Below, piece by piece: positions 13,289-40,433 of a stretch of 64,000 nt of DNA. A model generated the notes under the pieces. That model did not search any database. It saw only the letters and a program-made list of their open reading frames with translations, and had not been told where the DNA came from. A program made the translations under genes and the position numbers. The stretch covers positions 5,698,501 through 5,762,500 of the forward strand of contig NZ_CP021112.1 in assembly GCF_002119765.1 (NCBI RefSeq). Reading direction: 5' to 3'. Origin of the DNA: Pseudorhodoplanes sinuspersici. GTDB lineage: Bacteria; Pseudomonadota; Alphaproteobacteria; Rhizobiales; Xanthobacteraceae. The number at the start of each line of letters is the position of its first letter. Position 1 is the first letter of the stretch.

Positions 13289-14491
13289 TCAGGGACGTCT
13301 GACGCTTTCCAGCAGCGAGGTCTTCAGAAGGAATGCCCGATGCGCAACGGGATCGGCCGCGGTCTGACGCAAAAATTCGAAATTCTTCTCGCGCTGTTCC
13401 TGGCTCTTCTCCTCAAGCCGCTTCTTGTTCGCGATGGTCTGCTGCTGCACATATTCGATATTCATCGGCCGCCGGCGCTCCTCGTAGCCAAGCAACGTCT
13501 CTTCCGACGCTTTGCCTTCCATGACGGCAGCAAGCCGGCCGGCAAGATCCATCGCGTCGTGAATGCCGCAATTGAGACCAAGGCCGCCGATCGGATTGTT
13601 CACATGCGCTGAATCGCCGGCCAGAAAGACGCGACCCTTCTGGAACTTGGCCGCGACACGCTGATGCACGTTATAGATATTGCGATGGACGACAATGTAG
13701 TCGCTCCCTTTCGGGAAAAACTTCTGCAACCGCCTCTGGACAGCTTCGTCGCTCAGAACCTCTTCATCCGTTTCACCCGGCACCGTCGGCATCACTACAC
13801 GCCACAACCCGCTGCCATCCTCGCCGGCGACCTTGAACAGGTTGCACCACTCGTCGGGGTCGGAGAAATAAGCGCGATAGCCCGCCCCCCGCTCCTTCTC
13901 GAAATCGACCGGCGTCGTCAGAACCAGAAACCGCTCGGGGAACGTATAGCCTTCGAACTCGATATCGAGCGCCTTTCGCACCGTCGACCGGCCGCCATCG
14001 GCGCCGACGAGATAACTGCCTGAGACGACCTCCTGCTCGCCGTCCCGATCGATCGTGACCGCGACGCCATCGGCGGTCTGTTCCACCGCGCTCACCCGTG
14101 CCGAGAAATGCACTTGCGCATGCGGCATGGCCTTGAGGCGGTCGATCGCCATCAAAGCCACTTTGTGCTGCTCGCATTGAACGACGAAGGGATGCGGCGT
14201 GTCGTCTTTCAGGATCGCATGGTCGAACTCCGCGACGACCGTGCCGCTTGGCCTGTCCCAGAACTGAAAGGTGCGCGCGACAAGCCCGCGCGTCACCACG
14301 TCGTCCAGCAATCCCAGCGATGCCAGCATTTCCAGCGTCGCCGGATGCAGCGTCGACGCCCGCGGCGCGGAATTGACCTGATCGCCGGCTTCATAAACCC
14401 GCACGGGAATGCCCTTTTGCGCAAGCGCAAGAGCCGTGACGACGCCGACGGGACCGCCGCCGGCGATAATGACTGATTGCTGTGAGGCCAT
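13289..14491 (-). CDS. FAD-dependent aromatic-ring monooxygenase
   Basis: 400-residue class A flavoprotein hydroxylase of the PheA/TfdB/MhpA family. It carries the N-terminal dinucleotide motif GGGPVGVVTALALAQ with the Glu of VRVYEAG, the central DG motif GADGGRSTVRK, and the FAD ribityl motif GD (VFLAGDSAHVNNPIGGLGLN). The length fits the short members lacking a thioredoxin-like tail. Known relatives use NAD(P)H and O2 to hydroxylate phenolic or N-heteroaromatic rings. It is the last gene of the leftward set DUF1185 protein, enamidase-like hydrolase, TTT binding protein, monooxygenase, and likely acts early in that pathway. Substrate unknown. Confidence 0.9.
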   Translation of the reverse strand: MASQQSVIIAGGGPVGVVTALALAQKGIPVRVYEAGDQVNSAPRASTLHPATLEMLASLGLLDDVVTRGLVARTFQFWDRPSGTVVAEFDHAILKDDTPHPFVVQCEQHKVALMAIDRLKAMPHAQVHFSARVSAVEQTADGVAVTIDRDGEQEVVSGSYLVGADGGRSTVRKALDIEFEGYTFPERFLVLTTPVDFEKERGAGYRAYFSDPDEWCNLFKVAGEDGSGLWRVVMPTVPGETDEEVLSDEAVQRRLQKFFPKGSDYIVVHRNIYNVHQRVAAKFQKGRVFLAGDSAHVNNPIGGLGLNCGIHDAMDLAGRLAAVMEGKASEETLLGYEERRRPMNIEYVQQQTIANKKRLEEKSQEQREKNFEFLRQTAADPVAHRAFLLKTSLLESVRRP

Positions 14492-14502
14492 ATCGAACCC
14501 GG

Positions 14503-15477
14503 TTACTGCTGCTTGATACCGGCCGCTTCGAGCGCACTCGCCCAGAGCGCCACATCGCCTTCGAGTTCTTTGGCGAACTGCTCAGGCGTGTTGCCCAAAG
14601 GGTCAACGCCGTAACCTGCAAGTTTCTCTGCGAACTTCGGATCCTTCACCGCATCGATGACGACTTTGGCGGCCTTGTCGACCACCTCCTTCGGCGTCCC
14701 GGCCGGCGCCATCAGCGCGTTCCAGGTCAGCGATTTGTATTTCGGATAGCCGGATTCCGCGACAGTCGGCACGTTCGGGAGCTGCGGCGCCCGCTTGTCG
14801 CCGGACACGGCCAGCAGCTTCAAATTTCCGCCCGCTGCATGCGGCAATGTATCGGACAGGTTCGAGAACATCGCCGGGACGTGGCCGGCAATAACGTCCG
14901 AAAGCGCGGGCGCATTGCCTTTATAGGGCACGTGAACCATGTCGATGCCCGCCTCTTTCAGGAACAGGGCCATCGAAAGATGCGCAAGGCTGCCTTGGCC
15001 GGCCGATGCATAAGAGACTTTGTCCTTCTGCGCCTTCACGTATTTCACGAATTCGGCAACGTTGTTGACCGGCATGTCCTTGTGGACCACCAGCACGAAC
15101 GGATTGGTCGCCACATTGCTGATCGTCGCAAAATCCTTCAGCGGGTCGTATTTCACCTTCATCATCTTCGGCACGACGGTGAGAACCGAATGCGCCGTCA
15201 GGAATAGCGTGTAGCCGTCGGGTTGCGCGCGCGCGACAAAATCAGCCGCCAATGCGCCACCGGCACCGCCCTTGTTCTCGACCACGAATTGCTGATTGAG
15301 ACCCTCGGTCAGTTTCTGCGCGACCATACGCGCAATGCCATCCGTGTTACCGCCCGCAGCGAAGGGCACAATCACCGTCACCGGCTTTTGCGGCCAACTC
15401 TGCGCAAAAGCAGTCGCGGGCAGCAACGCTGTTGAGAGCGCAGCAATCGAAGCCAAAACAATTCGCCGTGTCGTCAT
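14503..15477 (-). CDS. Bug-family (TTT) periplasmic binding protein
   Basis: 324-residue extracytoplasmic solute receptor of the tripartite tricarboxylate transporter/Bug family. ATG 15477 has AAAGGA 9 bp upstream. The signal peptide MTTRRIVLASIAALSTALLP ends at AFAQ. The mature protein starts SWPQKPVTVIVPFAAGGNTD, the family hallmark, and contains VENKGGAGGALAADFVARAQ. No TctA or TctB membrane subunit is in the window, so it either works with a distant pair or acts as a receptor only. It is 11 bp upstream of the monooxygenase gene. Confidence 0.93.
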   Translation of the reverse strand: MTTRRIVLASIAALSTALLPATAFAQSWPQKPVTVIVPFAAGGNTDGIARMVAQKLTEGLNQQFVVENKGGAGGALAADFVARAQPDGYTLFLTAHSVLTVVPKMMKVKYDPLKDFATISNVATNPFVLVVHKDMPVNNVAEFVKYVKAQKDKVSYASAGQGSLAHLSMALFLKEAGIDMVHVPYKGNAPALSDVIAGHVPAMFSNLSDTLPHAAGGNLKLLAVSGDKRAPQLPNVPTVAESGYPKYKSLTWNALMAPAGTPKEVVDKAAKVVIDAVKDPKFAEKLAGYGVDPLGNTPEQFAKELEGDVALWASALEAAGIKQQ

Positions 15478-15546
15478 CACTTTCATCCTTTCAGAAAAGG
15501 TTTGAACAATCCCGGCACTAAAAAGCAAACAACATACCAACGCGCA

Positions 15547-16743
15547 TCAATGCGCGGCGGCGCTGAAGTCCTGAATGACATTGCTGCGCGCAACACGAAC
15601 GCGACGAATTCCTTCCGGTGTGTTGCGGCTACGACCGACAAAGCGCGGCACACCATCGGTAATGACTGCGCTCACTGCGGCAACATCACCATTGGCGAGG
15701 GCCGAAAGCGCGTCATCCTTCGAGCCGCCGGAACATGCGTCAATGACAACGACATCGGCGTCCTTGCCCGGCGCCATGAAGCCCGAATTCAATCCATAGA
15801 CTCTTGCATTGTTGCCGGTGGCAGCGGCAATCGCCCATTCCACCGGCAGACCGGCGAGACTGGCCAGATGCGTGATCGTGTACATCATGCCGAGCGGCAT
15901 GATGCCGCTGCCGGTCGGCGTGTCCGTCGCGATCAGGAAGCGGTCGAATTGATCAGCCTCGCGCACCAGCTTGCTCAGCCACAATGTCGTCCGCAGATTG
16001 CCTGCGGTACAAACCTGCAGTGCAACTTTCGATTCATTGACCAGACGCGGAAAGCCCTCATCCGGCATGGCGATCGGTCCGCCGTTGACGTGGAACGACA
16101 CATCAGGATCGAGCGCCAGAATGTGTTCGGACCAGATGCCCGATGAACCGGGAATGGAGGAACCGCCGGTGTGCACAGTCGTCACCATGCCGCGCGCCTT
16201 GGCCCAGGCGATCATCGGCTTGTAGTCATAAGGCGTCGGGAACGCACCAAAGCCTGCCTTGGCGAGCCACACACCTTTCGACTTCAGGTCGTCGAAATCG
16301 GCCTCTGTCAGACCTGGCTCGAGAATGATCGAGCCGGCATGAACGCGCATGCCGCCCGGCCGCCAGCCCTGAAAGCTCTTCAGCGCGGCAACGGCCAGCG
16401 CTTTCACACCTTCCGGATCCTTGGGGCGCCCCGGCACATGCACTTCGGATGCGGTGATCGACGTCGTCACGCCGCCATGCGTATAGCTTTCAAGAAAGCC
16501 GACTGTCTTCTGGCGCGGGGTGTAATCCCCGAAGGTGATGTGGACATGCGAGTCGATCAGCCCGGGGATCGCAACGGCCCCGGCCGCATCGATCACGACA
16601 TCGCAGGTTTCGAGCGCCTTTGCGTCAGCCGTTCCGACGGCAGTAATCTTGCCGCCATCCATCACAATCGTATCGCCGTTGGCGAAAGGCTGACGCCAGT
16701 CGCCGGTGACAATGGTCTTGAGATTGGTGACGGCTGTTTTCAT
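15547..16743 (-). CDS. Enamidase-like amidohydrolase
   Basis: 398-residue binuclear-metal amidohydrolase. The strand-1 metal motif is IPGLIDSHVHITFGDYTPRQ. Other shared landmarks are FLESYTHGGVTT, the segment TTVHTGGSSIPGSS, FHVNGGP, ATDTPTGSGIMPLG and the C-terminal SRNTP. As I recall it, the Eubacterium barkeri enamidase (which opens 6-oxo-1,4,5,6-tetrahydronicotinate to 2-formylglutarate and ammonia) has the same landmarks, including GDYAPRQK and HTGGTSIPGSS. This supports hydrolysis of a partly reduced lactam ring or enamide. It lies 7 bp from the DUF1185 gene and in line with a monooxygenase and solute receptor. Exact substrate unproven. Confidence 0.82.
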   Translation of the reverse strand: MKTAVTNLKTIVTGDWRQPFANGDTIVMDGGKITAVGTADAKALETCDVVIDAAGAVAIPGLIDSHVHITFGDYTPRQKTVGFLESYTHGGVTTSITASEVHVPGRPKDPEGVKALAVAALKSFQGWRPGGMRVHAGSIILEPGLTEADFDDLKSKGVWLAKAGFGAFPTPYDYKPMIAWAKARGMVTTVHTGGSSIPGSSGIWSEHILALDPDVSFHVNGGPIAMPDEGFPRLVNESKVALQVCTAGNLRTTLWLSKLVREADQFDRFLIATDTPTGSGIMPLGMMYTITHLASLAGLPVEWAIAAATGNNARVYGLNSGFMAPGKDADVVVIDACSGGSKDDALSALANGDVAAVSAVITDGVPRFVGRSRNTPEGIRRVRVARSNVIQDFSAAAH

Positions 16744-16750: not shown

Positions 16751-17326
16751 TCAATCCTTGCGGCGCTTCACGGCTTCGTCATAGGTCATGCCGCCGACGC
16801 GCGCGTTGATGCGACCGCGATTGGCCAGGCAGAAGATCAGTGCGATTTCATCCGGCATCGGCGCATCCGGCAACATCAGCGTCATGCCGTCATAATGCGA
16901 CCGGACATAGACATCCTCGATGCAATTCATCGGAATGTCGATCGGCGTGCCCGGCGCAACCACCTTGGTCATCGACGAGATCCACGCATCGGCGCGGCCG
17001 ATAGCGTCGCGGAACGGATTGGCGAAAACGGTCGTCAGAAGCGCATTGGCATGTTCTTGCTCGCCAGCGGTGCCGACCAGTCCACCCTTGCCATAGCTCT
17101 GCACGCCATAGGGCGCCATCGCCGCCATTGCCGGCTTGGCCATCTGCGCACCGAGCGCCGGGCTGGCATTGATCAGAGGCGACAGATCCTCGACATAACG
17201 GCCGAGATAGGGGTTTTCGATAATCGCGACGACGGCAACCTTGCGGAGCGGAAGGTCGGCATCGCGGCCGGCCTCGACGAAGCGCTCTTCCACAATCGTC
17301 GACGTCCGGCGAATCTTCAACTCCAT
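16751..17326 (-). CDS. DUF1185 / 'amino acid synthesis' family protein
   Basis: 191-residue protein of PF06684 (formerly DUF1185), whose family name does not describe a proven reaction. Recognisable segments are PLRKVAVVAIIENPYLGRY, YGVQSYGKGGLVGTAGEQEH, and GTPIDIPMNCIEDVYVRSHY. ATG 17326 has GGAGAGGAAGG directly upstream, so it is well translated and is the first gene of the leftward operon. It faces a palindrome at 17375-17389 in the divergent promoter. In this context it probably serves cyclic amide or imide catabolism; the sequence shows no known catalytic motif. Confidence 0.8.
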   Translation of the reverse strand: MELKIRRTSTIVEERFVEAGRDADLPLRKVAVVAIIENPYLGRYVEDLSPLINASPALGAQMAKPAMAAMAPYGVQSYGKGGLVGTAGEQEHANALLTTVFANPFRDAIGRADAWISSMTKVVAPGTPIDIPMNCIEDVYVRSHYDGMTLMLPDAPMPDEIALIFCLANRGRINARVGGMTYDEAVKRRKD

Positions 17327-17389: not shown

Positions 17390-17419
17390 GGCAAGCAAAG
17401 ATTTGTGACGGAGCTGGAA

Positions 17420-18088
17420 ATGACAATGGGAAAGGCGATCCTGTTTTCGGAAATGACGCCGGACGCCTCTTTCGAGAGCGACTTTCACCATTGGTACGAT
17501 ACCGAGCACATCCCGATCCGCATGAAATGCGATGGGTTCGTCAGTGGTCAACGCTACAGGTCGGATGCCGGTCCAGGCTTCCTGGCCGTTTATGACATGA
17601 CGGACCTTTCTGCGCTCAAGACGCCCGACTATACCAAGATCAAGACCCAGCCGAGCGAGCAGACGCGCTGGATGCTGGACAATGTCCGTGGCTTTACGCG
17701 CTATCTCGGCAATGAAATCCATCGCAACACCAAGGATGCCGGCGCGATCGATGCCCCTATTCTCTACGCCGTCTGGTTCAATGTGCCGCAGGACCGCGCC
17801 AGCGAGTTCAACGACTGGTACGAAAGCGAGCACATCCCGCTGCTCATGAAGGCGCAAGACTGGCGCATGGTCCGCCGGTTCCGGATCGTCGATGGCGAGC
17901 CCGGGACTTGGAGCCACCTCGCCCTGCACTATCTAGCGAGCATAGCTGCCCTGCAATCGCCGGAACGCGAGGTCGCGCGAAAAACAGCATGGCGCGATAA
18001 GCTAGCAGCCGAATCGTGGTTCAAGGGAAATTATTCTATTTTTGAAAGGCACGGCGACCGTCACATTGGAATCAGCGCCGTAATCTGA
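17420..18088 (+). CDS. Tandem dimeric alpha+beta barrel protein, unknown function
   Basis: 222-residue protein built of two copies of a ferredoxin-like (EthD/DUF4286-type) domain. The repeat is visible as FHHWYDTEHIPIRMK in the first half and FNDWYESEHIPLLMK in the second, each with the conserved W-Y-x-x-E-H-I-P core. Such barrels act as small isomerases, decarboxylases, dehydrochlorinases or oxidases on aromatic intermediates, but none can be named here. ATG 17420 is preferred because GGAG lies 7 bp upstream, over a GTG at 17405. It is 4 bp upstream of the GntR gene and divergent from the DUF1185-enamidase operon. Confidence 0.75.
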   Translation: MTMGKAILFSEMTPDASFESDFHHWYDTEHIPIRMKCDGFVSGQRYRSDAGPGFLAVYDMTDLSALKTPDYTKIKTQPSEQTRWMLDNVRGFTRYLGNEIHRNTKDAGAIDAPILYAVWFNVPQDRASEFNDWYESEHIPLLMKAQDWRMVRRFRIVDGEPGTWSHLALHYLASIAALQSPEREVARKTAWRDKLAAESWFKGNYSIFERHGDRHIGISAVI

Positions 18089-18092: not shown

Positions 18093-18749
18093 ATGGATCT
18101 CAAGGTTTCGCCAGTCAGCGTTCAGCAACAGGCCGCAAGCAAATTGCGAGCCGCCATTTTGGCGGGCGTGTTTCAGCCAGGAGAACGTCTGGTCGAAGCC
18201 GATCTTTGCGAACGTCTCGGCGTCAGCCGGCCGTCCGTCCGGGAAGCCTTGCGGAGTCTCGAAGCCGAGAAGCTTGTCGCGATTGTTCCGAACCGCGGGC
18301 CCCTTGTTCCCCTGATCACGTGGGAACAGGCCAGGGAAATTTACCAGGTACGTGTTCTTCTGGAGGCTGAAGCCGCCGCTGCCTGTGCGCAAAGCCTGAC
18401 TCCCGACAGCATCAGACGGATGCAGGATGCTCTGGCCGACTTCATCAAGGCGGACAAAGAGGACAATGCGGTCGAGCGCGTCAACGCCACCTCGCGCTTT
18501 TACGACGAAATATTGAATGGCTGCGGCAACAGCGTCATCAAGGACATTCTCAACGGACTGCTTGCACGAGTAACGTTCCTGCGTTCACGTACGATGTCTG
18601 CCCCCGGACGCGCAAAGCACAGCGCGCAGGAGATGGCGGCTATGCTCCAGGCCATCCAGAAACGTGATTCAGATGCGGCACGAAAAGCCGCTGCGCAGCA
18701 TGTCGAGCGTGCAAGTCGTGCAGCCCAGGCGATATTTGAAAAACAATAG
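18093..18749 (+). CDS. GntR-family transcriptional regulator (FCD type)
   Basis: 218-residue regulator with winged helix at residues about 8-70 (AASKLRAAILAGVFQPGERL, LCERLGVSRPSVREALRSLE) and a helical FCD domain (ATSRFYDEILNGCGNSVI). It is co-transcribed with the tandem-barrel gene. The palindrome GATTGTCAGACAATC upstream of that gene is its probable operator, so it would regulate both itself and the divergent DUF1185-enamidase-TTT-monooxygenase operon. Confidence 0.92.
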   Translation: MDLKVSPVSVQQQAASKLRAAILAGVFQPGERLVEADLCERLGVSRPSVREALRSLEAEKLVAIVPNRGPLVPLITWEQAREIYQVRVLLEAEAAAACAQSLTPDSIRRMQDALADFIKADKEDNAVERVNATSRFYDEILNGCGNSVIKDILNGLLARVTFLRSRTMSAPGRAKHSAQEMAAMLQAIQKRDSDAARKAAAQHVERASRAAQAIFEKQ

Positions 18750-19634: not shown

Positions 19635-20723
19635 GTGCCGATCGCCAAAGTCCATCGTATTTCCGCATATTCTCCCGACGACGCCTCCGGCATTGCGGAC
19701 GCGATCGCGCGCGGCGATATCGATCCGCGCGGCGTCATGGCGGTATTCGGCAAGACCGAGGGCAATGGCTGCGTCAACGATTTCAGCCGCGGCTTTGCGA
19801 CCGCGACGCTGACGCAGTTTTTCAGCCGCTACATGCCCGCCGATGACGCTGCGAAAATCTGCTTCGTGATGTCCGGCGGCACGGAAGGCGCGATGGCGCC
19901 GCACTGGACCATCTTCGAACGCGCGGAAGGGGACGGCGCAGCAGGGCCGGCGCTCGCCATCGGCCGCGCGCATACGCCCGCCCTGCCCGCCGAACATCTT
20001 GGACACGCCGGCCAGATCGCGATGGTCGCTGATGGCGTCCGCACAGCGATGCAAGATGCCGGAATCACGAATGCGGACGATGTCCATTTCGTGCAGATCA
20101 AATGCCCGCTCCTCACCGCACAGCGCATCGGCGAAGCGACATCGCGCGGCGCCACGGTCGCCACCACCAGCACGCTGAAGTCGATGGGCCTGTCACGGGC
20201 CGCGAGCGCGCTTGGCGTCGCCGTGGCGCTCGGCGAACTCAAGGCCGATGCGATCACGCCATCCGATATCGGCGACAACTGGTCGTTATACTCGGGCCGC
20301 GCAAGCTGTTCTGCAGGGATCGAATTGCTCGGCCATGAGATCGTGGTGCTGGGCCTGTCGAAAGACTGGAGCGGCCCGCTCACCATCGACCACGCCGTCA
20401 TGGCCGACGCCATCGATATCGAACCCGTGCGCGGTGCGATGCAACGGCTCGGCTTTGCCGCCAACGGACAATTGTCATCGGCGGAACGCGACAAACTTGT
20501 CGCCCTTCTGGCGAAGGCGGAGCCAAGTCAGAACGCAATGCTGCGGGGCTTTCGTCACACGATGCTGGACGATTCCGATATCTCGCCGACACGGCATGCG
20601 CGTGCCTTTGTCTGCGGTGCGCTCGCCGGTCTTGTCGGCCATGCCGAGATCTATGTCTCGGGCGGCGCCGAGCATCAGGGCCCCGACGGCGGCGGCCCCG
20701 TCGCCGTGATTGCGCGGCGCTGA
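19635..20723 (+). CDS. Ring-opening amidohydrolase (barbiturase/cyanuric acid hydrolase family)
   Basis: 362-residue member of the AtzD/barbiturase family, enzymes that hydrolyse the ring amide of cyanuric acid or barbiturate with Ser-Lys pairs in a three-fold repeated barrel. Landmarks are GKTEGNGCVNDFSRGFA in domain 1, ATTSTLKSMGLSRAASALG in domain 2 (Ser and Lys of the catalytic unit) and the C-terminal metal-site region SGGAEHQGPDGGGPVAVIAR. Length matches the family (about 360). GTG 19635 has GGAG 6 bp upstream. Neighbours are amidohydrolases and not triazine genes, so barbiturate or another cyclic imide is as likely as cyanurate. Confidence 0.88.
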   Translation: MPIAKVHRISAYSPDDASGIADAIARGDIDPRGVMAVFGKTEGNGCVNDFSRGFATATLTQFFSRYMPADDAAKICFVMSGGTEGAMAPHWTIFERAEGDGAAGPALAIGRAHTPALPAEHLGHAGQIAMVADGVRTAMQDAGITNADDVHFVQIKCPLLTAQRIGEATSRGATVATTSTLKSMGLSRAASALGVAVALGELKADAITPSDIGDNWSLYSGRASCSAGIELLGHEIVVLGLSKDWSGPLTIDHAVMADAIDIEPVRGAMQRLGFAANGQLSSAERDKLVALLAKAEPSQNAMLRGFRHTMLDDSDISPTRHARAFVCGALAGLVGHAEIYVSGGAEHQGPDGGGPVAVIARR

Positions 20724-20826
20724 GACTCGCGTCCGTCAAGTCTGTTATCCTGATATCGAACGCACCAATATCGCGCCAGAACGCGCGGTGTATCATTGCG
20801 CGTTAAAGGACAGGACCAGTTTCGCC

Positions 20827-21648
20827 ATGATCATTCAGACAGCGCCGGCCGGGCAAAAGCGCCTTGCCATCATGATGAGCCAGCACACAGCGCTCTGTCA
20901 GCAATTCGCGCAGGTGTTCGGCAACGCGCAATTCGAGTCTCTCGACCCGCTGGATCTGATGATCTACGTCATTTCCAATCACGATGCCGGCTGGCTGGAA
21001 TTCGATCGCAATCCGGCCATCGATCCGGCGACCAGCCTGCCCTACAACCTTGTCGAGACACCACCGGAATACATCACCGTCACCAGCCGCCTTTCTCCGG
21101 ACTTCAATCAGCGTCACCATTCTTATTCCGGATTGATTTCCAGCATGCATAGCTGGGGGCTTTACAATGGCCGTTACGGCCTTTCGAAAATGGTGCTGCT
21201 CGACAAGATCGCGGAGCAGGATCGGCCGCTGGCCGACAAGATGCTCAACGGCGAACTCGATCGGCAGGCGCGGCTCAAGAGAGAACTCGAAAGGGATCCA
21301 AGCACAGCGGCCTGGCTCGACGGCCGCAAGCTGTTCCAGAACTATAAGCAGCTTCAGTTCATCGACACGCTGGCGCTTTATTTCAACCGCATCCATCCAT
21401 CGGAGCGGGCCGAGCAGGTGTTTGAAAATGTGCCGATGAGTGCGAATGAGGATGTATCCGTGAGCATTCGTCCGGTGGACGCCGGCATCTATGCGCTCTC
21501 GCCCTTCCCATTCGCAACCGACAATTCGGAGTTCGCTTACGCGGGCCGTCGTATCGCGCCTGACCTTGGCAACACTGAAGGCGGCTGGCCGGCAGCACTC
21601 AAGCGCACGCCGACGGAATGGGAACGCTTTCGTCTTGTCCCCGCGTGA
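20827..21648 (+). CDS. DUF3891 family protein
   Basis: 273-residue mostly helical protein of the DUF3891 family. Conserved histidines and acids occur in MSQHTALCQQFA, ISNHDAGWLEFD and RHHSYSGLISSMHS. This spacing resembles an HD-like metal site, although no metal-dependent reaction has been assigned that I know of. ATG 20827 is chosen as the first methionine of the conserved region, with AAAGGA further upstream. It lies 103 bp after the ring-opening amidohydrolase on the same strand, so co-transcription is likely. Function unknown. Confidence 0.75.
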   Translation: MIIQTAPAGQKRLAIMMSQHTALCQQFAQVFGNAQFESLDPLDLMIYVISNHDAGWLEFDRNPAIDPATSLPYNLVETPPEYITVTSRLSPDFNQRHHSYSGLISSMHSWGLYNGRYGLSKMVLLDKIAEQDRPLADKMLNGELDRQARLKRELERDPSTAAWLDGRKLFQNYKQLQFIDTLALYFNRIHPSERAEQVFENVPMSANEDVSVSIRPVDAGIYALSPFPFATDNSEFAYAGRRIAPDLGNTEGGWPAALKRTPTEWERFRLVPA

Positions 21649-21832: not shown

Positions 21833-21891
21833 CTCGTTTGCGCAGCGCGCTGCATAAATGAGTGGCATCGCGTGCGATCGGGGGAGGCAAC

Positions 21892-24751: not shown

Positions 24752-24954
24752 TTCGCGACTGAGAGGCACATATTGTCGTGAGTGTTGATGGCATGCTGCA
24801 ACGCCTCGCGAAGTCCGCGCCACCGTCAAAATTTTCGGCGCCACAAAAACACGTCACCGGAGCCAGCCGGTCGAACCCTCAACGTTTCCGGCCATTTTTT
24901 CGTGGCCTTCAGTATCGCTCGGCGACTATCGTTCGCAGATCAAGGAGTCTGATC

Positions 24955-29704: not shown

Positions 29705-29763
29705 TAGAGCATGATGTTGTCCGAAAACCGCTTCGCACTTGTCAGCATCATGTTCTAGAGCGG
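29705..29763. repeat. Rhizobiales-style intergenic palindromic repeat
   Basis: AGAGCATGATG near 29706 pairs with CATCATGTTCT near 29746, around a centre containing TTGTCCGAAAACCGCTTCG. From memory this is a member of the dispersed 'gagcatgat...gcggttttcgg' palindrome family frequent in Bradyrhizobium-like genomes. It lies between the LivF gene and the MarR gene. Confidence 0.7.
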
Positions 29764-29777
29764 CAGGAAAGCTGTTG

Positions 29778-32601: not shown

Positions 32602-33080
32602 CAGCTTGACCGCATCTGCTCCGCCGCCATGCGGACGGCCTTGATGATGTTCTGGTAGCCCGTGCAACGGCAGAGATTCGATGACAGCACATCAACGAGA
32701 TCCTCGTCGCTGATATCCGGCTCGCGCTCCAGTACGCCGGTCGCCAGCATCAGAAATCCCGGTGTGCAGAAACCGCATTGCAGACCGTGACAATCCATGA
32801 AGGCCTGTTGTAGCGGATGAAGCTTGCCACCCTCGGCAAGACCCTCGACGGTGCGGATCGCCTTGCCGTCAGCCTGCACGGCGAACATCAGGCAGGACCG
32901 CGCCGGGACGCCTTCGATCAGGACGGTGCATGCCCCGCAGACACCATGCTCGCAGCCGATATGCGTGCCGGTCTGGCCGCAATCCTCGCGGATCGCATCG
33001 GCCAGCGTGCGGCGCGGTTCCACAGAGACGTTGTGCGTCTGACCGTTGATGTTGAGCGTTACATCGGTTTTCTTCGTCAC
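32601..33080 (-). CDS. Molybdenum hydroxylase small 2Fe-2S subunit (CoxS type)
   Basis: 159-residue iron-sulfur subunit with two 2Fe-2S sites. The plant-ferredoxin type is GCEHGVCGACTVLIEG with a later Cys (RSCLMF). The C-terminal helical type is QCGFCTPGFLM followed by NLCRCTGYQNI. I prefer GTG 33080, which overlaps the previous stop as GTGA and has GGAAG upstream, over GTG 33086. It passes electrons from the Mo site to FAD and serves both large subunits, since only one small subunit is encoded. Confidence 0.93.
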   Translation of the reverse strand: MTKKTDVTLNINGQTHNVSVEPRRTLADAIREDCGQTGTHIGCEHGVCGACTVLIEGVPARSCLMFAVQADGKAIRTVEGLAEGGKLHPLQQAFMDCHGLQCGFCTPGFLMLATGVLEREPDISDEDLVDVLSSNLCRCTGYQNIIKAVRMAAEQMRSS

Positions 33081-35407
33081 GACCACTTCCCTGACTGTTG
33101 CAGCGCCGTGTGAATCCGCTGCGGCGTTGCCGGGGCTTCGTTAAGTGTAATGTCGAACGGCGACAGCGCGTCGTTGATGGCATTGATGATCGCCGCCGGT
33201 GCACCAATGGCGCCGCCCTCGCCCAGACCCTTCGCCTGAGTGAGCGTGTCGCCAGTCAGCGTCTCGAGGTGAAAAATCTCAATGGCCGGAATTTCGTGCG
33301 ATGTGGGCGGCAGATAATCGGCAAGCGTTGTTGTCAGGATATTGCCGGTCTCGTCATAGATGATTTCCTCATAGAGCGCGTTGGCGATGCCCTGCGCGAC
33401 GCCGCCATGGATCTGGCCTTCGGCGATCATCGGATTGATCAGCCGCCCTGCATCTTCTGCAACGATGTACCGCTCGATCTTCACGCCACCCGTTTCGACA
33501 TCAACCTCGACAATAACGGCATGGCAGGCATTGGAGAAAGTGCCGCCCGGATCATAGCTCGCCGTCTCGCTTAAGCCCGGCCCAAGATCGGTAAACAAAT
33601 GCGCCTTGTGATAGGCCGCCCGCGCAACCTGCTCGACCGGGAGAAAGCGATTGGTGCCTTTCACCTTTGCCGCGCCATCCTCCAGCTCGATCTCGTCGGG
33701 ATCGGCCTCCAGCAAGCGCCCCGCAATCTGCAGGAGCTTGCTGCGGACCTTTCGTGCCGCGAGCAAGGTCGCGCCGCCGGCGATCACCGCAGAACGGCTG
33801 GCGAAGGTGCCAAAGCCGTAGGGTGTGCGGTCCGTGTCGCCGTGCACCACAGTGACCTTCGACGGATCGACGCCAACCTGATCGGCGACGATCTGCGCCA
33901 AGGTCGTCCGCAAACCTTGACCATGCGGCGACGCGCCAATGCGCGCTTCGACACGGCCGGACGGGTCCATGCTGAGATCGACGACCTCCCAGCCAGGCGT
34001 GATCTCCATGCCGCGAGCAGCAAAAGCCGGCGTGCCATAACCGGTGCGCTCGGAGAAGGTTGCGAGGCCGATACCAAGATAGCGGTTGTGCTTGCGGGCC
34101 TCGGCTTGGCGCTGCCGGAAGCCCGGAATGTCGAGCGCCTCGACCGCGATCTCCATCGTCTCCCGATACGATGCATCGTCAAAGACGAGACCCGTCGCCG
34201 AGGTGTAAGGAAACGTGGTGATGAGATTGCGCCGCCTGATGTCGACCAGATCGAGCGCCAGCGTCTTTGCGGCCTTGTCCATCAATCGTTCAAGGGCAAG
34301 GGTGATGACCGGCCGCGACACACCGCGATACGGTGCCATCGGGCAGGTGTTGGTGACAACGCCGCGCGCATGACAGGCATAAGCGCGCACGTCATAGGGG
34401 CCGGGCATTTCCGCCATTGCCATCAGCGGTTCGACGGCGCAGGTGGTCGGGAAGCAGGAATAGGCGCCGATATTGGCGAGGACATCCGCGGACAAGGCCA
34501 GCAGCTTGCCGTCGGAGGCGAACGCTCCTTGTAGCGTGACATACTGATCGCGGCTATGGAAACAGGCGATCAGATTCTCGCGCCTGTCCTCGGTCCATGC
34601 CACCGACATGCGCAACCGCCTGGCGAGCCATACCAGCGCGACATATTCCGGCGTCAGTGACATTTTCTGACCGAAGCCGCCGCCGACATCGGGAGCGATC
34701 ACCCGCAGATCCGATTCCGGGATACCCACGAGATCGGCAATCGCCGTCCGCATCAGATGCGGCATCTGCGTCGAGCAGGTCAGCGTGATGCGTCCCGAGA
34801 CGGAATCGAAGGCCGCGTGCGCGCCGCGCGGCTCCAGCGGCAGGGCGTTCTGACGCCGTGACCGGATGTCGACGCTGACGATTTGTGCGGCGCTCGTCCA
34901 GACGTCATCGAAGCCTGGCGTTTTTACACGCCCCTCAACAATGACATTGGCCGGCGCTTCACTGTGCACTGCTGGCGCGCCCTCACCGATCGCCGCTCTT
35001 GCATCGACCAGCGGCGGCGTTTCCTCGATCTCGAGTTCGACCTGCTCGGCGATATCCTCGGCATCTTCCTCGCTGTCGGCGACCACGACCGCAACCGGCT
35101 CACCCATGAAGCGAACGACGCCGTCGGCGAGAACGGGATGACTGATCGGGATATAGTTGAACTTGTGCAGCATCGGCCGGATCGGCTTCACGCCATCAAG
35201 ATCCGCAGCCGTGATCACCATCGCGCCTGGCGGTAGGGTGATCGCCTTGATGCGCCCGGATGCAACGGGGCTGCGCACGAAGCTCACCCAGCGCTGCGCG
35301 GCAAGATCTCCGGTGAAACGGCCACGGCCTGTAATCAGAGCCGGGTCTTCAACGCGCCGGATGGAGCGGCCAACCCAGGTTTTGATGTCGTGATCGTGGG
35401 CGCTCAT
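33077..35407 (-). CDS. Molybdenum hydroxylase large subunit B (XdhB/CoxL type)
   Basis: 776-residue molybdopterin-binding subunit, paralogous to but clearly different from the one at 30295-32601. Landmarks: VGRSIRRVEDPALITGRGRF at the start, GGGFGQKM, the active-site loop MAPYRGVSRP, PHGQGLRTTLAQIVADQVGV, and the catalytic Glu in AKGLGEGGAIGAPAA. The loop differs from subunit A (YRAPGRFE) so the substrate or position of attack probably differs. It overlaps the medium subunit by ATGA and the small subunit by GTGA. Confidence 0.93.
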   Translation of the reverse strand: MSAHDHDIKTWVGRSIRRVEDPALITGRGRFTGDLAAQRWVSFVRSPVASGRIKAITLPPGAMVITAADLDGVKPIRPMLHKFNYIPISHPVLADGVVRFMGEPVAVVVADSEEDAEDIAEQVELEIEETPPLVDARAAIGEGAPAVHSEAPANVIVEGRVKTPGFDDVWTSAAQIVSVDIRSRRQNALPLEPRGAHAAFDSVSGRITLTCSTQMPHLMRTAIADLVGIPESDLRVIAPDVGGGFGQKMSLTPEYVALVWLARRLRMSVAWTEDRRENLIACFHSRDQYVTLQGAFASDGKLLALSADVLANIGAYSCFPTTCAVEPLMAMAEMPGPYDVRAYACHARGVVTNTCPMAPYRGVSRPVITLALERLMDKAAKTLALDLVDIRRRNLITTFPYTSATGLVFDDASYRETMEIAVEALDIPGFRQRQAEARKHNRYLGIGLATFSERTGYGTPAFAARGMEITPGWEVVDLSMDPSGRVEARIGASPHGQGLRTTLAQIVADQVGVDPSKVTVVHGDTDRTPYGFGTFASRSAVIAGGATLLAARKVRSKLLQIAGRLLEADPDEIELEDGAAKVKGTNRFLPVEQVARAAYHKAHLFTDLGPGLSETASYDPGGTFSNACHAVIVEVDVETGGVKIERYIVAEDAGRLINPMIAEGQIHGGVAQGIANALYEEIIYDETGNILTTTLADYLPPTSHEIPAIEIFHLETLTGDTLTQAKGLGEGGAIGAPAAIINAINDALSPFDITLNEAPATPQRIHTALQQSGKWS

Positions 35408-36261
35408 GCGGCCGCGCGTTCCAACGCCCGACGCGTGACCGTGCGAACGAGATCGCGCCGGAATTTCGCATTCGCTTGCAGGTCCTCCATTGGATCGACA
35501 GTCGCAGACGCTGCTTCCCCTGCGGCGGCAAACGCTTCCGCGCTCGGCGCTCTTCCACTCAGAGCAGCCTCAGCTTCGCTGATGCGGCGCGGACGCCCCT
35601 CGGCACCACCAACACCAACGCGTGGCTCGACAATAAGACCGTCCTCCAGACGATACGTCACGAGCGACATAGCAATGGCATAATCGCCCGCGCGCCGGCT
35701 GAATTCGTAAAAGCCAAAATGCGTATCCGGCGGCAGAAGCGGCAGACTAGCCTCAGTCAAAAGCTCGTTCTCGGCGAGATTGGTCGTCATCGCCCAGTCG
35801 AAAAAATCGTCGGCCGCAAGCTGGCGCGTCCCGCTCACACTGCGCGCGGTGATCGTTGCGCCGAGCGTTGCGGCGACCAGGCACCATTCCGACGCCGGAT
35901 CGGCATGCGCAAGGCTGCCGCAGAAGGTGCCACGCGTTCGGATCGGGTAATGGGCGATGTGCCGCATCACGAACGACAAAAGTGAGCCCAGCGGCCCCTC
36001 AACCACCGGACGCTGAAAGGCCGCGTGCCGCGTGCCCGCGCCGATCACCAGACGACCGTCAGCCACCGCAAGCTTATCGAGCGCGGCGATGCCGTTGATA
36101 TCGACCAGATGCGCCGGACGCGCCATGCGGAACGCCATTGTCGGAACAAGGCTCTGCCCCCCCGCCAGCACGCGCCCGTCGCTCGGGGCCACCTCGCCAA
36201 GGATCGCGACAGCATCCTCGACCGTTTTTGGCGCGTGATAGGTAAAGGCCGCAGGCTTCAT
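35404..36261 (-). CDS. Molybdenum hydroxylase FAD subunit (CoxM type)
   Basis: 285-residue medium subunit binding FAD. Motifs are AGGQSLVPTMAFRMARP (pyrophosphate loop) and TRGTFCGSLAHADPASEW, followed by the CO_deh_flav C-terminal domain. It is the first gene of the four-gene operon M-L-S-L. The promoter region carries a 28-bp inverted repeat at 36292-36319, 30 bp before the start. Confidence 0.93.
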   Translation of the reverse strand: MKPAAFTYHAPKTVEDAVAILGEVAPSDGRVLAGGQSLVPTMAFRMARPAHLVDINGIAALDKLAVADGRLVIGAGTRHAAFQRPVVEGPLGSLLSFVMRHIAHYPIRTRGTFCGSLAHADPASEWCLVAATLGATITARSVSGTRQLAADDFFDWAMTTNLAENELLTEASLPLLPPDTHFGFYEFSRRAGDYAIAMSLVTYRLEDGLIVEPRVGVGGAEGRPRRISEAEAALSGRAPSAEAFAAAGEAASATVDPMEDLQANAKFRRDLVRTVTRRALERAAA

Positions 36262-36481: not shown

Positions 36482-37446
36482 CTACATTTTCAGCAGCCTC
36501 TTGGCGTTTCCGCTCAGGATCTTGACCTTGTCGTCGTCGCAGAGCGGCACGCCGCGCATCCAGTCCACCGCCGGTTTGCTCTCAGACACGAACGGCCAGT
36601 CGACGGCAAAGAGGATGCGGTCGACGCCCATTTCCATGACGCTGCACAGCAAAGCCGGATTGGAGAAAAAGCCACTCGTCGTAACCCAGAAATTCCGGCA
36701 GAAAATATCACGGAAGCTCAATGACTTTTGCCCCGGCCGCGACAGGGCCTGATCGATGCGCCACACCAGAAATGGCAGCGTCTCGCCGAAATGCCCGACG
36801 ATAATCTTGAGATTGGGGTGATGCTCGAAGATGCCCGACAGGATCAGCCGGATCGCCTGCGTGCCGTTCTCGATCGTGTAGCCCCAGGCCGGACGCGCGA
36901 AACTCGGAAACTGCTTTTCGTAATCCTGGAAATAGGCACCCCTGACCGCGTCATGCGGGACGGCGGGGTGAAGATAAATCGGCACATCCAGTTTTCGGCG
37001 CGTGTGAAAATCGGCCAGGATTTCGGCAGGTCGAGAAATTCGCCGTTGGACAGCCCGTTAATGATCGCCCCCTTGAAGCCGAGCCCCACGCAGCGTTCGA
37101 GTTCGTCGGCCGCGGCCTCCGGCGCATTGGTCGGTAGCGACGCAAAGCCGGCGAAGCGGTCCGGTTTGTCAGCAACCACCGCGGCCAACCTGTCATTGAC
37201 GCGCTTCATCAAAGGTATGGCGACATCTGGAGCGAGCTTCTGCCCGGCCGGTGCGCCATGCGACAGCACCTGGATATCGATGCCGGCTTCATCCATGTCG
37301 CGAATGCGTTCGCCACCGAAATCCTCCAGTCGCTTCTGTATTTTGTCGCCTTTGCCGATCTCGCTTCCGGTGAAGTGAGACGCGAGTTCCGGATCCCAGT
37401 AATGTTCTTCTATCGCGATAACTGAACAATGCGGTTTCGCAAACAT
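36482..37446 (-). pseudogene. Frameshifted decarboxylase-type amidohydrolase (ACMSD/gamma-resorcylate decarboxylase family)
   Basis: The family's features are split over two frames. The N-terminal part from ATG 37446 has IAIEEHYWDPEL (metal Glu/His) and IRDMDEAGIDIQVLSHGAPA. The C-terminal part has VPIYLHPAVP (metal His), VGHFGETLPFLVWRIDQAL and FAVDWPF (metal Asp). They join if one A is added in the GAAAAC run at 36992-36995, restoring RAEKLDVPIYLHP in place of RAENWMCRF. This family removes CO2 without oxidation from aromatic acids. A one-base loss in a homopolymer could be a sequencing error or a recent inactivation. Confidence 0.82.
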
Positions 37447-37467: not shown

Positions 37468-38382
37468 CTAGGTCAAGATGGCCTTCGCAGCATTGCCCAT
37501 CGCTTCCACCGAGGCATCGCCAGTATCGAGGAACGCAACGATACGGCACGGGCAGCCTTCAAGGCCTTCGTAGCGCCAGGGGAAGGCCCCGATCAGGCAG
37601 CGCTGGTTGAGCACCAGCTCGATGTCACCGCCGAGATTCTCCGCATGCAGCAGGCCTTCCTGGAACGCCCAGCTATGGAACGGAAACATATCCTGCTGCA
37701 CTTTTCTGCCGGATTTCTTGTGTGTGTATTCGAAGATTCCGAAGAATTCTGCCGGCGTTTTGCCATGCTTCTTGGTGAATTCATCCGCGAGATCTGGCCG
37801 CATACGGCGGATCGACGTGTTCATCGCGTGATCGCATGACCCCGTATCCATGCCCCACCACTTGATTTTTTTGTTCAGCATCCAGTGGAGCGTGTCGAGA
37901 TTCGGCCCCGGGTGATAGCAGAAGTATTTCACGAGATCCTGCTGCGACTGCCCCTCATAATGCTTGTGCCAGCCGGTATGCAGGATGAGGATATCGCCTT
38001 CGCGGATATCGGCGCCGGCGCTTTCGATGATCTCCGGCGTGATCACCGCCCAGTCATGCATATACCCGGAGATATCGACGACCACCGCCTTGTTGAACAG
38101 ATAATCGAGCGGCAGATGCGCCATGTCGCCATTGCGGTTGTCGGTCGCATGCATCGCGCCGTCGAAATGGGTACCGACGTGCAGGGCGGTGTCGATGCGT
38201 TGCGCGACGATCATCTGCGTCTGCAGGTTCTGAGCATAATACATCTTGTTGCCGGCATAGCCGACCCAACCCGGCGTATGCACGTTCATGACGTGCGTGA
38301 GATCGACGATTTTCAAGAGACCCTCCACAAACTTCGAACCAACCGGCAAGCGCTTCAGATGATGTGAACCGGCAAGCTTCAC
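37468..38382 (-). CDS. Cyclase-family hydrolase (kynurenine formamidase-like)
   Basis: 304-residue PF04199 cyclase-family protein. GTG 38382 is chosen because GGGAGG lies 8 bp upstream; a longer form from ATG 38430 has no ribosome site and enters AT-rich regulatory DNA. The metal motif is LHVGTHFDGAMHATD (HxGTHxDxxxH). Also present are WGMDTGSCDHAMN and GDILILHTGWHKHY. Family members are zinc or manganese hydrolases such as arylformamidase (KynB) and isatin or creatinine hydrolases, acting on N-formyl or cyclic amide bonds. It is divergent from the XRE-cupin regulator. Confidence 0.88.
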   Translation of the reverse strand: MKLAGSHHLKRLPVGSKFVEGLLKIVDLTHVMNVHTPGWVGYAGNKMYYAQNLQTQMIVAQRIDTALHVGTHFDGAMHATDNRNGDMAHLPLDYLFNKAVVVDISGYMHDWAVITPEIIESAGADIREGDILILHTGWHKHYEGQSQQDLVKYFCYHPGPNLDTLHWMLNKKIKWWGMDTGSCDHAMNTSIRRMRPDLADEFTKKHGKTPAEFFGIFEYTHKKSGRKVQQDMFPFHSWAFQEGLLHAENLGGDIELVLNQRCLIGAFPWRYEGLEGCPCRIVAFLDTGDASVEAMGNAAKAILT

Positions 38383-38479
38383 ACCCCGGCCCTCCCGAAT
38401 TTGAATATTATTAATGAATAGTTTAATCATGTCAAAATTGGTATTTGCAGCACTCAAGGACGCGCACGAGGAACATTCC

Positions 38480-39082
38480 ATGACCGGCGAATCCGCGCCG
38501 AAGGATCAGGTCGATTTCGACGGCACAACCGCGACCACGCTCAGCGCAATCGGCAACCGAATTCGCGAATTGCGTCAGGCACGCGGACTGACGTTGCAAT
38601 CGCTTGCCGATGCCTGCGCCCTGAGCCAATCAATGTTGAGTCTGGTTGAACGCGGACGCGCCTCCCCCTCGATCGGCTCTTTGATCGTCATCGCCAATGC
38701 GCTCGGCGTGCCAATGTCCGAACTCATCGTCGCGCAGACGACCGACGATACGCGGTTTGTCGTGCGTCGCGAGGATCAGCGCGTGATCAAGACCGCGACC
38801 AATGTCATTCGACGCCTCCTTCGTGAAGATCGCATGCGTGGCGTTTCCATCGCGATGAACGAATATCAGCCGAATACGGGCGCCAACGCCGCCCCGATCA
38901 CGCATGACGGATACGAATACGGCGTTGTCCTGGAGGGCACGCTGACGGTGGAAATCAACGGCGCGGCGTATATCCTGAACGAGGGAGATTTGATCTCCTA
39001 TGGCTCGCGGCGTCCGCACCGAATCTGGAATCACGGGTCCACAAAAGTGCGCACGCTCTGGATCAATCTTCAGCAGGACTAG
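38480..39082 (+). CDS. XRE-family regulator with cupin sensor domain
   Basis: 200-residue regulator: helix-turn-helix at residues about 22-80 (IGNRIRELRQARGLTLQSLA, LSQSMLSLVERGRASPSIGS) and a C-terminal small-molecule-binding cupin (HDGYEYGVVLEGTLTVEING, GDLISYGSRRPHRIWNHG). ATG 38480 is preceded by GAGGAA. It is divergent from the cyclase-family gene across an AT-rich stretch with ATTAA/TTAAT arms at 38410-38427, and just upstream of the amidase. It probably controls both in response to a metabolite bound by the cupin. Confidence 0.93.
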   Translation: MTGESAPKDQVDFDGTTATTLSAIGNRIRELRQARGLTLQSLADACALSQSMLSLVERGRASPSIGSLIVIANALGVPMSELIVAQTTDDTRFVVRREDQRVIKTATNVIRRLLREDRMRGVSIAMNEYQPNTGANAAPITHDGYEYGVVLEGTLTVEINGAAYILNEGDLISYGSRRPHRIWNHGSTKVRTLWINLQQD

Positions 39083-39116
39083 ACCGTTGCACGTGACTGA
39101 TCGGCGAGAAAGCTCC

Positions 39117-40433
39117 ATGTCCATTCGTGATCTGGTCGAGACCTGCCTGGCCAACATCCACAATCTCGACGGCGAAGGCTCTCGCGCGTTCACGCGAATC
39201 TATCACGAAGCGGCCCGACAACGGGCGGACGTTCTCGACCGGACACAAGCACGCGAGAAAGGGCTGCCATTGGCAGGCATGCCAATATCGATCAAGGATC
39301 TTTTCGATATCGCAGGAGAGCCGACGCTGGCCGGTTCTCAGGTCTTAAGAGACGCGCCCCCCGCAGCAGACGATGCCGAGATCGTCCAACACCTGCGAAA
39401 CGCCGGCGCGATCATTATCGGCAAGACCAACATGACCGAGTTCGCATTAAGCGGCCTCGGGCTCAACCCGCATTATGGCACACCGGCCAGTCCATGGCAG
39501 CGCGAGACGCGGCGCATTCCCGGCGGCTCGTCATCCGGCGCCGGCATTTCCGTCGCATACAACATGGCAATCGCCGCGATCGGCACCGACACCGGCGGCT
39601 CCATCCGCATTCCGGCTGCGATATGCGGCCTTGTTGGATTCAAGCCGACCGCCGCAACCATTCCTCAACGCGGCATGCTGCCGCTGTCGCGCAGTTTCGA
39701 TTCCATCGGTCCGATCGCCCGTGACGTCAGCACCTGCGCAACCATCTATTCCGTGCTGTCGGGGCAGCAACAAACTTCGCTAACACCTCTCCCACTCCCA
39801 TCGATCCGGCTGGGCGTTGTGAAGAACATTGTCCTTGATGATCTCGATGCTCAGGTCGCAAAGACATACGAGGCTGCGTTAAGCCGTCTGTCGGCGACCG
39901 GCATTCAATTGCAGGATATGGCACTGCCGGTGCTGGATGGGCATTCCCTCTATTCCGTTCACGGTGGCATGATCGTAGCCGAAGCCTATGCCTGGCATGA
40001 GAAGCTTTTCGCCGAGCGCAGCCATGCGTACGATCCGCGGGTCGCTTCCCGGATTGCACACGGACGTCGTATTTCTGCGGACGACTACAAGGCCTTTCAG
40101 GCCGAGCGCGCCCGCCTGATCAGGCAATGGGACATTGAGACGGGGTCCGTGGACGCAGTCATCATGCCGACGATCCCGATCATTGCGCCGACCATCAGGG
40201 AAGCGGACGCTGATGCAAACTACAACCGGCTCGACCGACTCATCCTGCGCAACCCGACAATCGGCAATCTCATGGATGCATGCAGCATCACCCTGCCATG
40301 CCATGAAGCATTAGACGCGCCCGTCGGCCTGATGCTGACTGCGCGCGGCGGACGCGATCGTGAACTCCTCCGTATTGCCAAGATGCTGGAGGGAGTCTTG
40401 CCACCGCGACAGGATGCGATGATCCAGTCCTGA
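39117..40433 (+). CDS. Amidase (amidase-signature family)
   Basis: 438-residue amidase-signature enzyme that hydrolyses carboxamides to acid and ammonia. The catalytic triad is visible: Lys in MPISIKDLFDIAG, cis-Ser in PGGSSSGAGISVAY, and the nucleophile Ser in IGTDTGGSIRIPA. Length fits free-standing amidases such as AtzF/GatA-like enzymes. ATG 39117 follows GAGAA, a weak ribosome site. It lies 34 bp after the XRE-cupin regulator. Substrate unknown; a ring-fission amide would suit the neighbourhood. Confidence 0.93.
   Translation: MSIRDLVETCLANIHNLDGEGSRAFTRIYHEAARQRADVLDRTQAREKGLPLAGMPISIKDLFDIAGEPTLAGSQVLRDAPPAADDAEIVQHLRNAGAIIIGKTNMTEFALSGLGLNPHYGTPASPWQRETRRIPGGSSSGAGISVAYNMAIAAIGTDTGGSIRIPAAICGLVGFKPTAATIPQRGMLPLSRSFDSIGPIARDVSTCATIYSVLSGQQQTSLTPLPLPSIRLGVVKNIVLDDLDAQVAKTYEAALSRLSATGIQLQDMALPVLDGHSLYSVHGGMIVAEAYAWHEKLFAERSHAYDPRVASRIAHGRRISADDYKAFQAERARLIRQWDIETGSVDAVIMPTIPIIAPTIREADADANYNRLDRLILRNPTIGNLMDACSITLPCHEALDAPVGLMLTARGGRDRELLRIAKMLEGVLPPRQDAMIQS

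Follow-up and report, generated by a model that had tools for sequence, protein, structure and literature searches.

Does the stretch between 13.3 and 40.4 kb of the window, i.e., of the 64,000 nucleotides of Pseudorhodoplanes sinuspersici (contig NZ_CP021112.1) that were analysed as a whole, encode one pathway for one ring compound, or do several catabolic units lie side by side? A first-pass annotation had read it as a single island for the catabolism of an N-heterocycle or cyclic amide, a reading that is partly supported. What looks like a 27-kb island is several catabolic modules placed next to one another: its genes are conserved beyond chance, but each module separately and not as one unit. 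We distinguish three (Table 1): module I, with an enamidase-family amidohydrolase, a flavin monooxygenase and a DUF1185 protein; module II, with a cyanuric-acid-hydrolase-type (CAH) enzyme and a DUF3891 protein; and module III, with a Liv-type importer and a molybdenum (Mo) hydroxylase with two large subunits. The best-supported novelty of the stretch is module I. The window is part of a single-contig 5.97-Mb genome. Thirty open reading frames (ORFs) covering the earlier-named genes, between positions 11318 and 42364, were scanned with Pfam and 20 of them also with NCBIfam, and the comparison set used most comprises 198 genomes of the same family. Papers are cited from excerpts of their text.

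For module III, the separation can be read from its relatives. Relatives of its fused Liv permease (E 1e-120) occur in 109 of the 198 genomes, with 38 in the group of 71-100% identity. Fifteen permease neighbourhoods were fetched, ten at 76-84% identity (L210-L219) and five at 64-73% (L220-L224). The former repeat most of module III, with Mo genes in nine (some loci are cut by contig ends, and L218 shows no Mo gene), and none of the ten contains an enamidase, DUF1185, FAD monooxygenase, EthD-like, CAH or DUF3891 gene. No alpha/beta hydrolase, crotonase, SDR or Mo genes were found in the latter five. Modules I and III each recur without the other. Besides the window, they share a contig in four genomes (G066, G080, G140 and G169), at distances of 0.8-5 Mb in contig coordinates, and 11 further genomes have them on separate contigs; side by side they were seen in the window alone. 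A CAH gene within approximately 10 kb of an enamidase gene is likewise confined to the window (one of 44 loci with a window-type enamidase and none of 53 with another type, as defined below). The first-pass annotation had tied the island to the modules not being independent across genomes: for linkage they largely are, but their co-occurrence within genomes exceeds expectation. Sixteen of the 198 genomes have both modules I and III where 8.06 are expected (Fisher test, 0.0009), 12 have module I and CAH (6.6 expected; 0.012) and 13 have module III and CAH (5.9 expected; 0.001), all figures being uncorrected for kinship.

Within module I, the genes for DUF1185, the enamidase, the TctC receptor and the FAD monooxygenase are separated by gaps of only 6-11 bp, which suggests that they form one operon. 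The product of 15547-16743, called enamidase-like in the first pass, is by its sequence a member of the real enamidase family: residues 2-383 of its 398 align with the Eubacterium barkeri enamidase (2vun) at 348 bits, and H66, H68, H191, H218 and D274, which we take to be the metal-binding positions, are invariant in 21 rows of the window clade and identical in 2vun. For the flavin monooxygenase, the best solved relative is PnpA (207 bits), followed by the hydroxypyridine monooxygenase HspB (191 bits); both are enzymes that hydroxylate at a substituted ring carbon. Homologues of this monooxygenase (at least 40% identity) lie near an enamidase in L062, L065 (the same locus as L121), L067-L069, L123, L139, L227 and L229, and module I genes are repeated in records named Agrobacterium vitis pAt and Mariluticola.

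An enamidase-family match (E 1e-30) is present in 101 of the 198 genomes, and one of the window type (here at least 57% identity) in 42. Twenty window-type neighbourhoods (L062-L081) all contain DUF1185, with the FAD monooxygenase, TctC, EthD-like and GntR genes in subsets of them. To the 80 best of 275 loci we added L062-L081, five plasmid records and the window, removed three duplicates and classed this wider set by identity to the window enamidase as window-type (at least 50%, n = 44), mixed (44-50%, n = 6) or other-type (<44%, n = 53). Because neighbours were followed for approximately 10 kb to either side, on contigs of which many are cut, a missing neighbour gene is no proof of absence. 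Of the window-type loci, 38 contain DUF1185, 26 a FAD_binding_3 or HpaB-type monooxygenase, 13 an EthD-like gene, six a UbiD or Amidohydro_2 decarboxylase, and four each a Mo hydroxylase, an aldehyde dehydrogenase and an amidase, while 6-hydroxynicotinate reductase (HNR) was found in none of the 44 within this reach. The other-type loci show HNR in 38 and DUF1185 also in 38 cases, and a FAD_binding_3 or HpaB-type monooxygenase in a single one. The six mixed loci include two with HNR and two with a luciferase-like gene.

The same division appears in a maximum-likelihood tree of 84 enamidases, which contains some long branches, chiefly L228 and L141. A branch with 100/100 support separates 28 enamidases including that of the window (HNR 0, flavin monooxygenase 16, neither 12) from 56 others (HNR 38, flavin monooxygenase 3, neither 15). 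Both labels require fewer changes on the tree than in all 500 shuffles, to which near-copies contribute. The cluster on the window side spreads over Alphaproteobacteria, Acidimicrobiia and one Bacillota genome. The genome of the window itself yields no HNR match; such an empty search is weak on its own, yet the same query finds the 38 other-type loci, and of the ten plasmid records listed five annotate it as 6-hydroxynicotinate reductase. Three Rokubacteria enamidases (L142, L143 and L144) fall on the HNR side of the tree; a Liv importer lies near L142 and L144, whereas L142 and L143 are close to DUF1185, a luciferase-like monooxygenase and a Mo subunit match. Another oxidative variant is possible for these loci. 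Separately, L139:2-3370 is a compact cluster in which UbiD-type decarboxylase genes accompany an FAD monooxygenase, EthD-like, DUF1185, enamidase and Mo hydroxylase gene.

DUF1185 (PF06684) accompanies enamidases on both sides of the tree. The window protein matches the profile with 218 bits over residues 5-178 of 191, is the only match in its genome, and its predicted structure (pLDDT 94.4) superimposes on the solved 3byq with a TM-score of 0.91; matches below an E of 0.001 in the structure search consist of DUF1185 entries alone. In 30 hand-picked, mostly complete genomes, 63 PF06684 matches were found in 29, against none in 14 control genomes, and 46 of these 63 copies lie within 40 kb of an enamidase. 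DUF1185 is found within 5 kb of all 13 window-type enamidases in this survey; for the other enamidases this holds for only two out of 20, although 19 have a copy within 40 kb. With a reference set, the neighbours of 12 of the 17 distant copies were examined. Two are beside Mo hydroxylase and Amidohydro_2 genes, one beside an alpha/beta hydrolase and an aldehyde dehydrogenase, and eight are accompanied by transporters, SDRs, weak hydrolase matches or little else. The remaining one (L251:4839-12505) is grouped with a luciferase-like oxygenase, a flavin reductase, an alpha/beta hydrolase and an aldehyde dehydrogenase, a set that in our view resembles the trigonelline cluster.

According to the excerpts of two papers, the DUF1185 structures published in 2010 have a chorismate-mutase-like fold, and a part in amino-acid metabolism was proposed for them (PMC2954203); HcdD, a protein of the DUF1185 type, is homologous to the trigonelline-pathway protein TgnF, which stimulates succinic semialdehyde oxidation by TgnE, an effect that the authors could not demonstrate for HcdD (PMC7913881). 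As CAH is reportedly derived from a trimeric YjgF-like monomer (PMC3758960, in part), this fold also prompted the idea that DUF1185 is a single-unit relative of CAH; it was dropped, no such hydrolase being found among the 50 of 420 structural matches listed.

Taken together, we propose that module I may break down a hydroxylated pyridine acid by an oxygen-dependent enamidase route, beside a separately conserved module III, and we judge the chances of this reading to be evenly balanced. A hydroxylated pyridine carboxylic acid would enter the cell via a transporter that uses the tripartite tricarboxylate transporter (TTT) receptor. The flavin monooxygenase would then take the place of HNR, with oxygenation instead of reduction, and yield a dearomatised or ring-opened enamide, whose enamide bond the enamidase would hydrolyse, giving an enamine or a formyl acid. 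The route would end in a formyl acid or semialdehyde, and DUF1185, here placed by gene context alone, may help at the enamine, formyl-acid or semialdehyde stage, as its relative TgnF reportedly helps a semialdehyde dehydrogenase. Module III would hydroxylate a pyridine or other N-heteroaromatic ring and pass the product to its hydrolase, crotonase and SDR. Both the chemistry and the substrate of module I are predictions. Rather unlikely, in our estimate, is a broader claim, in which a FAD_binding_3 or HpaB-type monooxygenase would replace HNR in a widespread oxidative enamidase pathway, enamidase and DUF1185 would work as a functional pair, DUF1185 would itself be catalytic on the enamine or formyl acid, and module III would supply the hydroxylated ring. 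On the proposed reading, module I would be a variant of enamidase pathways rather than a new kind of system. Its gene set is not described in the excerpts of the literature on enamidase, 6-hydroxynicotinate reductase and DUF1185/PF06684 that we consulted, which comes mostly from outside subscription journals.

Several observations weigh against the oxygen-dependent enamidase route. Eighteen of the 44 window-type loci lack a FAD_binding_3 or HpaB-type monooxygenase within approximately 10 kb, several of them on cut contigs, and the long loci L128, L131 and L132 carry an enamidase without a DUF1185 match. DUF1185 is not enamidase-specific, since 17 of its 63 copies lie away from enamidases, and its chemistry is left unconstrained because the only significant structural matches are to its own solved family. 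As the PnpA and HspB matches reach only 191-207 bits, the substrate class of the monooxygenase is uncertain. For the window-side enamidase clade, enamide hydrolysis is a prediction from sequence. The semialdehyde end rests on aldehyde dehydrogenases near only four of the 44 loci, and none is present in module I of the window. Finally, the excess of genomes with both modules I and III leaves room for a functional link between them.

Among the alternatives, a trigonelline-like route survives best, although we consider it unlikely. In trigonelline degradation, ring opening by a flavin oxygenase yields a formamidomethylene acid, which a hydrolase converts to an amine, formate and succinate semialdehyde. 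We take the Acinetobacter baylyi tgn cluster to contain a luciferase-like oxygenase and a semialdehyde dehydrogenase beside DUF1185. In the window, DUF1185 could likewise assist a semialdehyde dehydrogenase in the manner of TgnF, which is likened to it by family description; the tgn cluster resembles module I in having a DUF1185-type helper in an N-heterocycle pathway, as far as its excerpted description goes. The effect of TgnF on TgnE, the L251 cluster and the aldehyde dehydrogenases near four window-type loci, two of which are annotated as succinate-semialdehyde dehydrogenase in plasmid records, are all consistent with such a route. Yet module I contains a FAD_binding_3 enzyme instead of a luciferase-like oxygenase; neither the latter nor a semialdehyde dehydrogenase was found by Pfam among the scanned ORFs (11318-42364), no aldehyde dehydrogenase of any kind is present among the scanned module I genes, and the effect was not demonstrable for HcdD.

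That all genes of the stretch nonetheless serve one integrated island, in which Mo hydroxylases, FAD hydroxylase, enamidase, ring-opening amidohydrolase, amidase and CoA-type enzymes jointly degrade one cyclic amide or N-heterocycle, is improbable. The genes are all adjacent, the three pairwise co-occurrences exceed expectation, other Mo hydroxylase genes are found near the enamidases of L062, L064, L139 and L226, and in G033 an enamidase and a CAH gene lie 22 kb apart on one contig, the CAH gene being in its usual cluster. Against this stand the ten loci in which module III recurs without module I or II enzymes, the adjacency of CAH and enamidase in the window only, and the distances of 0.8-5 Mb, or different contigs, between modules I and III in 15 genomes.

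An ordinary nicotinate degradation via 1,4,5,6-tetrahydro-6-oxonicotinate (THON), with nicotinate dehydrogenase, HNR and enamidase as in Azorhizobium and Bradyrhizobium, is very improbable. Its clusters share with the window the enamidase family and DUF1185, and many contain a Liv-type importer and a MarR gene of the kind found here (E. barkeri; Azorhizobium/Bradyrhizobium, PMC3511419, in part). They commonly, if not at every locus, have two DUF1185 genes, and the two proteins that occupy their position in the cluster of PMC3511419 are probably such a pair, whereas the genome of the window has one. It also has no HNR match, with a flavin monooxygenase instead, and its enamidase falls on the HNR-free side of the 100/100 branch. 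While 2vun is a near-full-length homologue with conserved metal-site columns, its pathway is reductive, which the monooxygenase and TTT receptor next to the window enamidase do not fit; the window substrate is predicted from sequence. The Liv importer was initially taken for that of a THON cluster owing to matches of up to 72%, and this assignment was rejected: its permease is closer to the 71-84% group, of which the ten fetched (76-84%) lie in module III clusters, than to THON-cluster permeases (about 50-67%). Equally unlikely is that the enamidase-like protein is an oxygenolytic ring-cleaver such as KpiC, an amidohydrolase-family 3,4-dihydroxypyridine dioxygenase of 475 amino acids and 28% identity to enamidase that acts after the flavin monooxygenase KpiA (PMC7356986, in part), a pairing that the window shares, since the 2vun match spans residues 2-383 at 348 bits and KpiC is longer.

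The ring-opening amidohydrolase of module II (19635-20723) had been described as barbiturase-like; the family stands, and the enzyme is, from its sequence, of the cyanuric-acid-hydrolase type and not a barbiturase. It exceeds the cut-off of 360 bits for CyanAcHdlAtzD (NF052395) with a score of 550.9, matches the solved CAH of Azorhizobium caulinodans (4nq3) with 485.6 bits versus 239 for the solved barbiturase, and shares with 4nq3 and AtzD the curated match, all three Ser-Lys dyads (K40/S80, K156/S226 and K294/S342) and R188. The barbiturase subgroup has a Gln in place of this Arg188 (PMC4051656, on A. caulinodans CAH, in part), a mark that the window enzyme with its R188 does not carry. CAH relatives (E at most 1e-30) occur in 54 of the 198 genomes. 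In the 20 neighbourhoods fetched, one of which surrounds the second CAH-family copy of the window's own genome, allantoinase-like (15), LysR (15), permease (14), SDR (12) and TRZ/ATZ-type hydrolase (10) genes recur, mostly in one order with CAH. Most of the fetched relatives share this setting, in which CAH is joined by LysR, SDR, allantoinase-like hydrolase, ABC transporter and deaminase genes, and the window CAH lies outside it. L084-L098 show the recurrent set of LysR, SDR, allantoinase-like, ABC transporter, TRZ/ATZ-type hydrolase and CAH genes together with an unnamed family of approximately 345 amino acids, of which L093, the one locus from which the gene names are taken, has two further copies. 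This cluster is possibly an undescribed triazine or pyrimidine route. The window's genome also encodes a second CAH-family protein (47% identity, L100) and an allophanate hydrolase above its curated cut-off (G000:C1:3502210-3503883).

DUF3891 occurs in 12 of the 198 genomes, with only one other close relative (61%, L231), whose genome carries its CAH genes on another contig; CAH and DUF3891 were thus rejected as a conserved pair. The DUF3891 relatives of L231 and L234 adjoin sequence that matches a Mo hydroxylase large subunit (68 and about 400 residues, respectively).

The Mo hydroxylase of module III has the composition of the xanthine dehydrogenase (XDH) family in Pfam, with molybdenum-cofactor (MoCo) large, 2Fe-2S small and FAD medium subunits. 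Among solved structures, the best match of large subunit 1 is 6-hydroxypseudooxynicotine dehydrogenase (7dqx, 650 bits) and that of large subunit 2 is quinoline 2-oxidoreductase (1t3q, 512 bits; CO dehydrogenase reaches 474); in the window, two large subunits accompany one small and one medium subunit. Judging from these relatives, module III likely acts on an N-heteroaromatic substrate. Along with the enamidase family and the HspB-related monooxygenase, they bear out the N-heterocycle theme of the first-pass annotation, nearly all of whose gene labels hold in Pfam (FAD_binding_3, TctC, amidohydrolase, DUF1185/AA_synth, DUF3891, alpha/beta hydrolase, AtzD/TrzD ring-opening amidohydrolase, crotonase, SDR, Liv importer, MarR, cyclase family, amidase and the two-large-subunit Mo hydroxylase). 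Besides that of the CAH-type enzyme, three labels require adjustment. The decarboxylase-type amidohydrolase is of the Amidohydro_2 family, yet its gene is frameshifted: its two parts align, in different frames, with residues 1-162 and 148-322 of an unbroken relative of 322 amino acids. An intact relative lies near an enamidase and DUF1185 in L063. The kynurenine-formamidase-like hydrolase belongs to the cyclase family, but this particular likeness is weak (29 bits, cut-off 223). A DUF3830 protein is absent from the families of the scanned ORFs: 18756-19229 matches DUF7120 alone in a search to E 5. Module III was also considered as an auxin (iad) cluster, which includes a Rieske oxygenase (PMC12633357, in part), and this was rejected as no Rieske oxygenase is present among its genes.

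Table 1. Modules and genes of the stretch and its 5' flank, in window coordinates. Relatives are the ten loci L210-L219.
Feature	Position	Strand	Basis and remarks
Module I	13289-18749		FAD monooxygenase, TTT receptor, enamidase, DUF1185, EthD-like protein, GntR
Module II	19635-21648		CAH-type enzyme and DUF3891
Module III	21862-36261		alpha/beta hydrolase, crotonase, SDR, Liv importer, MarR, two-large-subunit Mo hydroxylase
LysR-type regulator	12314..13258	+	Pfam HTH_1 and LysR_substrate; divergent from module I, to which its position would assign it
FAD_binding_3 flavin monooxygenase	13289..14491	-	Pfam
TTT solute receptor (TctC)	14503..15540	-	Pfam TctC
Enamidase-family amidohydrolase, window-side clade	15547..16743	-	2vun 348 bits; tree
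DUF1185 / AA_synth protein	16751..17326	-	Pfam PF06684 218 bits; 7 bp upstream of enamidase gene
EthD/DUF4286-like protein	17405..18088	+	Pfam DUF4286; near 13/44 window-type enamidases
GntR/FCD regulator	18093..18749	+	Pfam; recurrent in enamidase neighbourhoods
ORF, 157 aa	18756..19229	+	no Pfam family at E 0.001; best DUF7120, 0.057
CAH-type ring-opening amidohydrolase	19635..20723	+	NF052395 550.9 bits; 4nq3 485.6 bits
DUF3891 protein	20710..21648	+	PF13030; TTG start as listed; overlaps CAH gene by 14 bp
Alpha/beta hydrolase	21862..22752	+	Pfam; 9/10 relatives
Crotonase-family protein	22779..23558	+	Pfam; 5/10 relatives
SDR dehydrogenase	23628..24440	+	Pfam; 10/10 relatives
Liv-type importer (receptor, fused permease, two ATPases)	24778..29630	+	Pfam; 10/10 relatives, 71-85% identity
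MarR regulator	29739..30239	+	Pfam; 9/10 relatives
Mo hydroxylase large subunit 1	30295..32667	-	7dqx 650 bits; 9/10 relatives
Mo hydroxylase [2Fe-2S] (small) subunit	32601..33086	-	Pfam; 9/10 relatives
Mo hydroxylase large subunit 2	33077..35407	-	1t3q 512 bits; 8/10 relatives
Mo hydroxylase FAD (medium) subunit	35404..36261	-	Pfam; 7/10 relatives
Frameshifted Amidohydro_2 gene (decarboxylase type)	36482..37446	-	two overlapping ORFs; outside conserved module III
Cyclase-family hydrolase	37468..38481	-	Pfam; near module III in 4/10 relatives, 82-84% identity
HTH-cupin regulator	38414..39082	+	Pfam
Amidase-signature enzyme	39000..40433	+	Pfam Amidase; NF005460 560 bits, cut-off 447

If the oxygen-dependent route proposed for module I is true, the enamidase family would have two metabolic lives, a reductive and an oxygen-dependent one, which share DUF1185 as one unexplained partner. 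A recurrent gene cluster of Alphaproteobacteria, Acidimicrobiia and one Bacillota would thereby be defined, and DUF1185 would gain a testable place in N-heterocycle catabolism. Should its role be catalytic, a reaction would be available for a family that has solved structures and, so far, only a proposed role in amino-acid metabolism.

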